Part shown: positions 31,216-34,673 of the stretch, piece by piece | How the letters are laid out: each line of letters opens with the position of its first letter | Position numbering within the stretch: position 1 is the first letter of the stretch | Origin: Candidatus Nitrospira neomarina | GTDB taxonomy: Bacteria; Nitrospirota; Nitrospiria; Nitrospirales; UBA8639 | Assembly (NCBI RefSeq): GCF_032051675.1 | Contig: NZ_CP116968.1 | Span: 1,302,001 to 1,366,000, forward strand | Direction: 5' to 3' | DNA: 64,000 bases | The notes under the pieces: model-generated | The model's database searches: none | Told to the model about the DNA's origin: nothing | Seen by the model: the letters and a program-made list of their open reading frames with translations, nothing else | Position numbers and translations under genes: made by a program

Positions 31216-31563
31216 TTAGGAGGGAGAGACTGCAGATAAGGCGTCCTGTTCTGACTGGCACACTGAGATGAGTTCATGGATTTGGAGATTTTGAAGCAAT
31301 TCCCCAACACATCCTTGTGGCTGAATCCAACTTATTCTGCGACGTAATTCCCTAAATTGATAGGAGCACAACACCAGAAATCCTAATCCAGCACTATCCA
31401 CAAACGTTAAGCCTTTGAGGTTGAGAATCAGATGCTCTTGTTCGGTATGGCAACATTGGTTAATAATGGCCTTAACATGCCATCGAGAATGCATATCTAA
31501 TCGACCATGAAAATCTACGACGGTCGCGCCTCGAATTCCACGTATAATAACTTCAATGGCCAT
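31216..31563 (-). CDS. STAS-domain (anti-sigma antagonist-like) protein
   Basis: A single STAS domain of 115 aa from ATG at 31563 (MAIEVIIRGIRGATVVDFHGRLD). The switch motif is FVDSAGLGFLVL, in which the Ser is the usual phosphorylation site. This places it with SpoIIAA-type regulators that bind anti-sigma kinases. No RsbW-like kinase or sigma factor is adjacent. A second STAS gene, interrupted by a stop codon, lies at 49.2-49.5 kb. Confidence 0.85.
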   Translation of the reverse strand: MAIEVIIRGIRGATVVDFHGRLDMHSRWHVKAIINQCCHTEQEHLILNLKGLTFVDSAGLGFLVLCSYQFRELRRRISWIQPQGCVGELLQNLQIHELISVCQSEQDALSAVSPS

Positions 31564-31735
31564 AATCTTACGAAACCTTATCGGTCCAATATGCCAGACC
31601 TTAACGAGCGTTTCTTCTTCGCGGCGCATCTTCCCCAACCCATAATAACGACAAAGGCCTGGTTCCTTTTCTTTTATTCGACCTGTATCATATTAGTGTT
31701 TTCCTCCACCGACTCCTGCTACAATTTCATCATCC

Positions 31736-33595
31736 ATGCCACCGGCCATTCATCCTGTTGATCTCATAGAAATACTCCGTCGGCATCGCTTGACTCCGGC
31801 GATTGTCTTTTTGACCTCTCGCCGGGCCTGCGATGAGGCCATTGATACCTTCGCCCACAGTTCCGCCAGGATGTCGACTCAACGTTCGGAGGCTATTCGG
31901 GAATTTCTGGAGAAATTCATCAAAAACTTCCCGAGTGTTGAGCACCACCCCTTAATTCCTGTTGTGCAGGAATTTGGAGTCGCCGCTCATCACGCCGGGC
32001 ATCTCCCTTCCTGGAAAATTGCGATTGAAGAACTCATGCGCCAGGGATTGTTGGATGCCGTGTTTGCCACAACGACCTTGGCCGCGGGGGTCGATTTCCC
32101 GGCACGAACCGTCGTGATTACCCAATCCAGCGTACGCAAATCGCAGGATTTCACTGATCTGACCAACAGCGAAATTCAACAGCTGGCCGGCCGCGGTGGA
32201 CGTCGAGGCAAAGATTTGGTGGGTGTGGTGGTCATTACTCCCTCTCCTTACATTGACTTAAACATCCTTGGCAAAGGACTCACAGGCTATCCGGAACCGA
32301 TCGACAGCCAATTTGTGGTGTCCTATCCCATGGTGCTTAATCTGCTGAAGGCCCATTCCCTGGATCAGATTGAGGGATTACTCGCAAAAAGCTTTGCGCA
32401 ATTTCAGCTGAATCAACGATCAAGCATCCATCAAGATCATCTGGATCAGATCAAGGACCAATTAACACCCTATGGACCCCGGGAATGCGCCGATTGGATC
32501 ACTCAGTGGAAAGGCTTTGATCTGGCCCGCCGCCGCAAAGCGCACCGACATCCTATCGTCACCAAGGACACGCCCTTTTTGACGGCCTGCCTGCCTTTTT
32601 TGACTCCAGGACGCCTCATCGGACTGCCAAAAGGTCCGGCGATTATTCTCCGTCAATATCGAAGTCGTGGAACCTTTGCCCCAATGTTATCTGTGATTCG
32701 GGCGAAAGGCACCTTGGGTGAGTGTCCTGCCCATTCGGTCACTCAGGTTTACGACCGCCTGTTTGAGTTTCAGCCCTCTCGCACTATTCCCTGGTGTCAG
32801 CCTCAGGTGCTGGCTCAACTCAAGAAAGAGCTTTCCCAATTGCCTGCGCGTCTGCCTACCGTTCCGATTTTGCCGGAAACCCAGGAAACAGAAGATCCGC
32901 TTCTCGCAGAAATATTAACGGAGGAATTTCCCTGTCCCACCTGTCCCTCCCACCCGGCCTGCAAGAAAGACTTTCCTCTGGCGTCGAAACTTCGCCAGAA
33001 ATCCCAGCAATTGACCAAAACGATACAAGCTCTCCGTGATGGATTGTGGCACCGGTTTCAACAAAAAGCCGACGTACTCCATAAATTCGGATATATCACC
33101 GCCAACTCGCAACTCACGGCTGACGGTGAATGGGCTAGACTCATTCGTATTAACCATTCCCTACTCATCACAGAACTGATTCGTATGGAGGCCTTCTCGG
33201 GTATTGCTCCAGGATTGTTAGCGGGCGTGATGGCGAGTATTTCCCATGATGATGATCGCCCAGGATCCTACATGCGCCTCCCGTCTGGACTGGCCTCCAT
33301 GTTGACACAGGTGCGTGCTGTCGCTGATTCCTTGAGCCCGTATGAACCCCCGCCCTTGTTGCGCTCAGATGTCGCGGCACTCGTGGAAAGTTGGATCGGG
33401 AACCCTCAACTCACATGGGCTTCACTGGTTCGTTCCACATCCATGGCCGAAGGGGATGTGTATCGCCTTTTAGCCAGAACCTTGGAATTTCTCTCCCAAA
33501 TATATGGACTCAAGGTGACGCATCCCGGCTTGGCCGATACCGCCCACTCCGCGATGGTGACCATGCGCCGGGAAGTCCTGCAAGAACTTCCATAG
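31736..33595 (+). CDS. Ski2-like helicase, C-terminal half (RecA2 and beyond)
   Basis: This 619-aa frame holds only the second half of a Ski2/Mtr4-like DExH helicase: motif IV-like PAIVFLTSRRACDEA (about 21-35), motif V TTTLAAGVDFPARTV, and motif VI QQLAGRGGRRG. A long C-terminal region follows with a Cys cluster (CPTCPSHPACKK) and a DSHCT-like helical part (ELIRMEAFSGIAPGLLAGVMASI). Motifs I-III are absent here but present in the next gene. The frame begins exactly at the inter-domain linker (MPPAIHPVDLIEIL) and no ribosome binding site precedes the ATG. See the finding on order reversal; activity depends on assembly with the next product. Confidence 0.85.
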   Translation: MPPAIHPVDLIEILRRHRLTPAIVFLTSRRACDEAIDTFAHSSARMSTQRSEAIREFLEKFIKNFPSVEHHPLIPVVQEFGVAAHHAGHLPSWKIAIEELMRQGLLDAVFATTTLAAGVDFPARTVVITQSSVRKSQDFTDLTNSEIQQLAGRGGRRGKDLVGVVVITPSPYIDLNILGKGLTGYPEPIDSQFVVSYPMVLNLLKAHSLDQIEGLLAKSFAQFQLNQRSSIHQDHLDQIKDQLTPYGPRECADWITQWKGFDLARRRKAHRHPIVTKDTPFLTACLPFLTPGRLIGLPKGPAIILRQYRSRGTFAPMLSVIRAKGTLGECPAHSVTQVYDRLFEFQPSRTIPWCQPQVLAQLKKELSQLPARLPTVPILPETQETEDPLLAEILTEEFPCPTCPSHPACKKDFPLASKLRQKSQQLTKTIQALRDGLWHRFQQKADVLHKFGYITANSQLTADGEWARLIRINHSLLITELIRMEAFSGIAPGLLAGVMASISHDDDRPGSYMRLPSGLASMLTQVRAVADSLSPYEPPPLLRSDVAALVESWIGNPQLTWASLVRSTSMAEGDVYRLLARTLEFLSQIYGLKVTHPGLADTAHSAMVTMRREVLQELP

Positions 33596-33617
33596 CCACA
33601 GATGGGAACGTACCGCC

Positions 33618-34673
33618 ATGCATCATGATGATCTCAAGCGCGAACTCCAAAATTTACCGGTAAAATATTTACATCACATGGCCAGGGGCCGCATCCATCG
33701 ACATTTTCGTCTCGGGAAACATCGCCTTGTTGAATTAATGCTGGCCTTTCCACCGGACCAGATTCTGGCCATCGAAACCGAACTGCAGCAGATACTGACC
33801 ATCCGCCAGGAACGCCTGGCCGCGCAAGAAGCCCGCGCCGCAGCACGCCCTCAAATTCCTGATTCGCCCTTTCAAGCAAAAAATCGTCCCAATAAGAGGA
33901 GGCCCACCTTCGGCCCTGTTCCGCCATCGATTACGCTCAAGCAAATATTGGAAGGGATTGGAGTTCCTGAGCCTCAACCCTTCGTTCCGGATCCCTGGCA
34001 AACCGAGGCGGTGGAACATCTGGCGCATTCAGATGTCATTGTGAGCGCTCCGACGGGAAGCGGAAAAACCTATGTCGCCATCCAGGCGATCAGGCAAGCG
34101 ATGGCACTGAACCAAACGGTGATTTACACCTCTCCACTCAAAGCGCTGTCAAATACAAAATTCATGGAATTCACCCAGCTTTTTGGACCGGATCAAGTCG
34201 GAATTTTAACCGGAGACCGGCGTGACAATGCTCAGGCCCCGCTCCTGGTCATGACGACCGAAATTTTGAGAAATTTATTCTATGATGCCGCCAGCGGGGA
34301 GATTGATTTACGGCTGCATACTTTGGGGCTGGTTATTCTGGATGAATCCCAATATCTCGCCGATCCAGAGCGTGGGGTGGTGTGGGAAGAAACCATTATT
34401 TTGTGTCCATCCCAAGCACGGCTTCTTCTTCTCTCAGCCTCTATCGGGAATCCTCAAGATCTGGCTGAATGGCTTCAATCCATCAGGCCTATTCCCTGCC
34501 ATCTTATCCGCCATGCCAAACGATCCGTTCCTCTTCGAGGGCTGTATCTGCATCCTACAGGGCAACTCGTTCCGCTGTTCAAAAATCAAGATATTCATCA
34601 AGGGAAAGGTTATACTTTTCATCCAGAAACAAAGCAGCTGTTCGCTGAATACGAAATTAAACCATTTCGTTAA
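33618..34673 (+). CDS. Ski2-like helicase, N-terminal half (RecA1)
   Basis: The 351 aa begin with a basic, helical N-terminal part (about 1-110). RecA domain 1 of a DExH helicase follows: FVPDPWQTEAVEHL, motif I APTGSGKT (about 143-150), TSPLKALSNTKF, GDR, TTEILRN, motif II VILDESQ and motif III LLSASIGN. Motif II is DESQ rather than the DEVH common in Ski2 relatives. The helicase part ends at LRGLYLHPTGQLVPLF and the last 35 or so residues look like an unrelated tail. It starts 22 bases after the C-terminal half, so the natural order of the two halves is inverted. Confidence 0.85.
   Translation: MHHDDLKRELQNLPVKYLHHMARGRIHRHFRLGKHRLVELMLAFPPDQILAIETELQQILTIRQERLAAQEARAAARPQIPDSPFQAKNRPNKRRPTFGPVPPSITLKQILEGIGVPEPQPFVPDPWQTEAVEHLAHSDVIVSAPTGSGKTYVAIQAIRQAMALNQTVIYTSPLKALSNTKFMEFTQLFGPDQVGILTGDRRDNAQAPLLVMTTEILRNLFYDAASGEIDLRLHTLGLVILDESQYLADPERGVVWEETIILCPSQARLLLLSASIGNPQDLAEWLQSIRPIPCHLIRHAKRSVPLRGLYLHPTGQLVPLFKNQDIHQGKGYTFHPETKQLFAEYEIKPFR

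Follow-up and report, generated by a model that had tools for sequence, protein, structure and literature searches.

The 64,000-nucleotide (nt) window analysed here, from Candidatus Nitrospira neomarina (order Nitrospirales; contig NZ_CP116968.1, positions 1,302,001 to 1,366,000), carries two adjacent genes, which we call C and N, that correspond to the two halves of a Ski2/Mtr4/HelY-type helicase placed in reversed order. Gene C (31736..33595, + strand, 619 amino acids (aa), product beginning MPPAIHPVDLIEIL) encodes the second half, consisting of RecA2, a winged-helix/arch-like region and a DSHCT domain. Gene N (33618..34673, + strand, 351 aa) encodes the first half, with an N-terminal helical domain, RecA1 with motifs I–III and a linker tail. 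The two open reading frames share a strand but not a frame and are separated by 22 nt. Pfam searches identified Helicase_C (PF00271, 29 bits, cut-off 23.5) and DSHCT (PF08148, 73 bits, cut-off 22.7, E 3.2e-20) in gene C, and DEAD (PF00270, 82 bits, cut-off 26) in gene N. Among PDB sequences, the gene N product matched RecA1 of Mtr4/Ski2 (E 1.6e-42), and the match of the gene C product to Ski2/Mtr4 starts at the linker (E 2.2e-36). An earlier note on this DNA had assigned motifs IV–VI and the C-terminal region to the upstream gene and motifs I–III to the gene 22 nt downstream; reading frames, Pfam and PDB matches all agree with this partition. The host genome is a single 4.8-Mb contig in which each half is present in one copy, and a search of that genome revealed no intact single-chain version.

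AlphaFold models of both products (mean predicted local distance difference test (pLDDT) score 81 each) returned Mtr4 as the top fold match. The template modelling (TM) scores against Mtr4 were moderate (0.5–0.6), in keeping with chains that are incomplete or flexibly arranged, and Foldseek aligned the gene C model with Mtr4 over ~680–700 columns. Between the winged helix and DSHCT, this model contains helices and a five-strand segment (residues 293–342) that may correspond to the arch/KOW-type insertion of Mtr4 and Ski2, the Foldseek TM-score of the model with Mtr4 being only about 0.6.

The motifs could be read directly from both sequences. Gene C contains helicase motifs IV, V and VI, the last with AGRGGRRG. 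Motif V (ATTTLAAGVDFPAR, 32066..32107, +) is near-invariant across 33 alignment rows, and in motif VI, the arginine-finger motif (QLAGRGGRRGKD, 32180..32215, +), Q149, G152, R153, G155, R156, R157 and D160 are invariant in the same rows. A cysteine cluster, CPTCPSHPAC (32933..32962, +), was located by alignment with the Nonomuraea single chain, and its residues C400, C403 and C409 are near-invariant in the 33 rows. The DSHCT domain (33107..33580, +, residues 458–615; PF08148) is the only one in the genome. Gene N carries APTGSGKT, TSPLKALSN, TTEIL, DESQ and SAS. Residues P145–T151 of motif I/Walker A (APTGSGKT, 34047..34070, +) are invariant except S148, and in motif II (DESQ, a DExQ variant, 34341..34352, +) D242 and E243 are invariant and Q245 near-invariant.

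Gene N begins with an extra helical domain (33618..33845, +, residues 1–76), delimited by alignment and by the AlphaFold model, in which residues 1–70 have pLDDT >90. It follows the pattern L..LP...LH.LARGR..RHFR.GKRRLI..LL, with a GKRRLI-type signature; a Pfam search of this domain gave no match, and by eye it resembles nucleic-acid-binding helices of the SAP/Rho_N type. In the alignment, N genes of family f4 are devoid of this domain.

To map the breakpoint, we placed N ahead of C and aligned them with two single-chain homologues, the 907-aa HelY of Nonomuraea and a 718-aa protein of Candidatus Troglogloeales. The cut falls inside the linker joining RecA1 and RecA2, in line with the position proposed in the earlier note. 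The first part of the HelY linker corresponds to the last ~35 residues of N, and the end of the linker to the MPPAIHP start of C; relative to single-chain HelY, nothing is evidently lost or duplicated at the cut. The note had also stated that similarity ends after GQLVPLF. This point needs refining, since the linker tail of N (34551..34670, +, residues 312–351) still aligns with the HelY inter-RecA linker, and its final ~35 aa are partly conserved within the order (HPE.K.LF..YE); the apparent loss of similarity reflects only the variability of the linker. The reversed order, together with strong selection on both halves, rules out a frameshift or broken gene, and the earlier argument that a plain frameshift could not give this arrangement stands. 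A chance neighbourhood of two different helicases is improbable: the halves meet inside the linker of a single HelY chain, and each has Mtr4/Ski2 as its nearest solved relatives.

We then surveyed 60 relatives and a 296-genome sample of the phylum. Among the 60 relatives, 54 had a separate N frame (~350 aa) and 56 a C frame (~620 aa), with a few frames truncated where a contig stops; in the phylum sample, N was present in 95 genomes of the order and C in 97. No N-bearing open frame exceeded 470 aa in the phylum sample (518 aa among the 60 relatives), and thus the order appears to contain no intact single chain. A fused, permuted single chain was likewise found in no genome of the survey. C lies immediately upstream of N, in the same orientation, in about 91 of the 94 genomes with both genes, a figure obtained by comparing two tables by eye. 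Gaps between the genes ranged from −4 to 195 nt in the 25 species measured. At one minus-strand locus (L035, genome G013), ~180 nt separate C and N, compared with about 22 nt in the window, and the inverted ends GAGCCTGTCGG/CCGACAGGCTC resemble those of a small element of the miniature inverted-repeat transposable element type. Contig ends account for three genomes with a single half (G047, G255 and G273), and a reduced 2.0-Mb genome rated 99% complete (G151) has neither gene.

Outside the order, the phylum sample contained one related helicase, in the Candidatus Troglogloeales genome G226 of the same class, Nitrospiria, as a single chain in normal order. When this protein was used as the query for a scan of the whole collection, it matched only itself. 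In the plasmid collection, the actinobacterial records examined contained only normal-order HelY. Genome G234 was rejected as a source of a family member, its protein being a Hel308-like relative on alignment. Taken together, the C-then-N order recurs in dozens of other species and in genomes assembled as a single contig, so the assembly error that the earlier note had raised as a possible refutation does not apply; neither does an intact copy elsewhere, none having been found in the host genome or the order. We found no published report of this helicase split in the open-access literature searched, although such absence is not proof of novelty.

Purifying selection on both genes is strong: the ratio of non-synonymous to synonymous substitution rates (dN/dS) within the genus has a median of 0.044 for C and, in N, of 0.043 for the RecA1 part and 0.19 for the N-terminal extension. 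Motifs of the ATP site and of RNA contact hardly vary in either chain. Low ratios were also obtained where the halves have come apart. In family f4, a distance of 13.5 kb separates them in G042, and in G039 they occupy different contigs and have different neighbours; dN/dS in this family is 0.11–0.14 for C and 0.03–0.10 for N. The two genes of G228 are spaced by about 7 kb (C 0.09–0.13, N 0.19–0.24). In G233, a 25-kb insertion that begins with a uridine diphosphate (UDP)-sugar gene separates glgC–C from N and an outer-membrane protein (OMP) gene; dN/dS is 0.04–0.06 here. In G044 and G050, glgC–C and N–OMP adjoin each other. Unlinked halves that nevertheless retain low dN/dS imply that the products must act in trans and are needed as separate molecules. 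At L060 (G042:C128), N is truncated by the contig end and, within the last ~200 bases, gives way to an inverted partial copy of itself, probably an assembly artefact. In G194:C5 (L120, L134–L137), a polysaccharide cluster begins at the expected N site, as in G233.

Apart from the partner gene, no neighbour is conserved across the families compared: outside the lineages just described, the C–N pair is kept together while its flanking genes change. In the window's genus, STAS and lipoprotein genes flank the pair, and family f2 has other neighbours. The STAS-domain-like gene (31216–31638, − strand), divergent from gene C, is kept in the close congener G019 and not in the other genera compared. 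In family f3, the start of C overlaps the end of glgC (glucose-1-phosphate adenylyltransferase) by ~26 nt (L049, L140 and L141, genomes G044 and G050, and other f3 loci), so that the pair may be translated from the glgC operon. A −10-like element, TACAAT (31720..31725, +), lies 11–16 nt ahead of the gene C ATG. In 13 congeners, the corresponding region reads ACTCCTG[CA]TACA[AC]T (one has TTACAAT) and stops 11 nt short of the ATG; TTAGTG lies further upstream. Such proximity of a −10-like element to the start codon suggests, from the consensus, a leaderless or nearly leaderless mRNA for gene C.

In superfamily 2 (SF2) motors, RecA1 closes onto RecA2 around ATP, and the pair nearly always resides in one chain. 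With motifs I–III on N and motifs V–VI on C, an active enzyme would require the two chains to meet. We therefore propose that C and N form an obligate two-subunit, Mtr4/HelY-like helicase with its ATP site at the interface of the chains, a reading to which we assign a probability of roughly 0.78. An ancestral single chain would have been cut in the flexible RecA1–RecA2 linker, its pieces becoming neighbouring genes in reversed order. N would contribute the ATP-binding RecA1 with motifs I–III and the extra helical domain, while C would contribute RecA2 with motifs IV–VI and the arginine fingers, the winged-helix/arch-like parts and the DSHCT ratchet. The two would assemble non-covalently and bind ATP and a nucleic-acid strand at their interface, and the complex may translocate 3′–5′, unwinding or remodelling structured RNA as do Mtr4, Ski2 and chloroplast ISE2. 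By analogy with these three enzymes, structured RNA is probably the target. We infer assembly, ATPase and helicase activity, and RNA as the substrate. The two-subunit idea of the earlier note gains strength from the low dN/dS, the near-universal co-occurrence of the genes and the lineages in which they are unlinked yet conserved. Since the reversed split is kept across the whole order, the pair looks like a natural two-part motor rather than a broken gene.

Two points weigh against the two-subunit helicase: motif II of gene N is DESQ instead of DEVH, and G194, a genome rated 99% complete, has a conserved, intact C with no detectable N, reflecting either a recent loss or an assembly gap. The G194 case would also favour the strongest alternative, in which each product has a job of its own: N would be a RecA1 ATPase or RNA-binding protein acting alone, and C an adaptor or RNA-binding factor of the DSHCT/winged-helix kind. 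The additional domain of N in most families and the occurrence of unlinked halves would fit this as well. We nevertheless consider separate functions unlikely, because motifs I–III of N and V–VI of C are near-invariant, which only the use of a composite ATP site would lead one to expect, and because the genes nearly always co-occur and stay adjacent despite changing neighbours. Less probable still is that protein or RNA trans-splicing joins the halves after expression into an ordinary single-chain helicase. This would account for the completeness of both halves as far as the linker, but start and stop codons are present in each frame, and the ends are not intein-like: the N tail and the MPP[AS]IHP start of C align directly to the HelY linker. 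Pfam detected no intein domain at the break, and an Rfam search of the region, including the space between the two genes, found no intron or other RNA element. A non-functional rearranged relic or assembly artefact, for which nothing speaks beyond the unusual gene order, can be dismissed given dN/dS far below 1, the lack of internal stops, the absence of an intact copy elsewhere in the genome and the recurrence of the arrangement in dozens of species and in genomes assembled as one contig.

That all families share this break implies a single fission, no later than the base of the order, or else acquisition of the genes already split. The families emerge in outline from the trees of both genes, but the outgroup branches (7–10 changes per column) are too long for rooting. 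Tandem duplication followed by loss of the outer halves is a plausible route to the reversed order; no remnants of such a duplication were seen. If the two-subunit helicase is real, it represents a clear gene fission with reversed order retained through a whole bacterial order, in whose later lineages the two genes drifted apart while selection on both persisted. How tight the tether between RecA domains has to be is a fundamental question for motor mechanism, and a natural enzyme kept across an order with its two RecA domains on separate chains would allow domain closure to be studied as subunit binding. More tentatively, RecA1 and RecA2 might serve as separate, exchangeable subunits, with the helicase switched by association and N, through a domain that resembles nucleic-acid-binding ones, loaded or regulated independently, a doubtful extension for now.

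Compared with known systems, the pair contains the features of the Ski2/Mtr4/HelY group, namely RecA1 with motifs I–III, RecA2 with motifs IV–VI and a C-terminal DSHCT; what differs is the RecA1–RecA2 order in one polypeptide, which is replaced throughout the order by two reversed genes. Likeness to Hel308 is confined to the Ski2-like SF2 core and partial NCBIfam matches. Membership in that family was rejected, as the best score was 69 bits against NCBIfam equivalog cut-offs of 887–1216 and Hel308 lacks DSHCT. Chloroplast ISE2 acts on structured RNA. The eukaryotic exosome helicases Mtr4 and Ski2 are the best solved relatives of both halves in sequence and fold, but they are single chains with a DEVH motif II and eukaryotic exosome cofactors. 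Both work on structured RNA, and Mtr4 unwinds RNA in the 3′–5′ direction in an ATP-dependent manner (PMC5818665). The Candidatus Troglogloeales homologue (G226, L104, 718 aa), the only non-split relative of this type found in the phylum, shares RecA1, RecA2 and a DSHCT-like end with the pair at 25–42% identity, but is one chain in normal order without the arch-like insert. Actinobacterial HelY (Nonomuraea, 907 aa, L131) has the same domains and is 43% identical in RecA1 and about 27% in the C part. Unlike the split helicase, it is one RecA1–RecA2–DSHCT polypeptide with a DEVH motif II and no extra N-terminal domain. Its linker and cysteine cluster (HPCHGC..H) sit where the linker and CPTC-x5-C of the split helicase sit, and this positional match of the gene C cluster points to a place for the split helicase nearer the bacterial HelY branch than Mtr4 itself.
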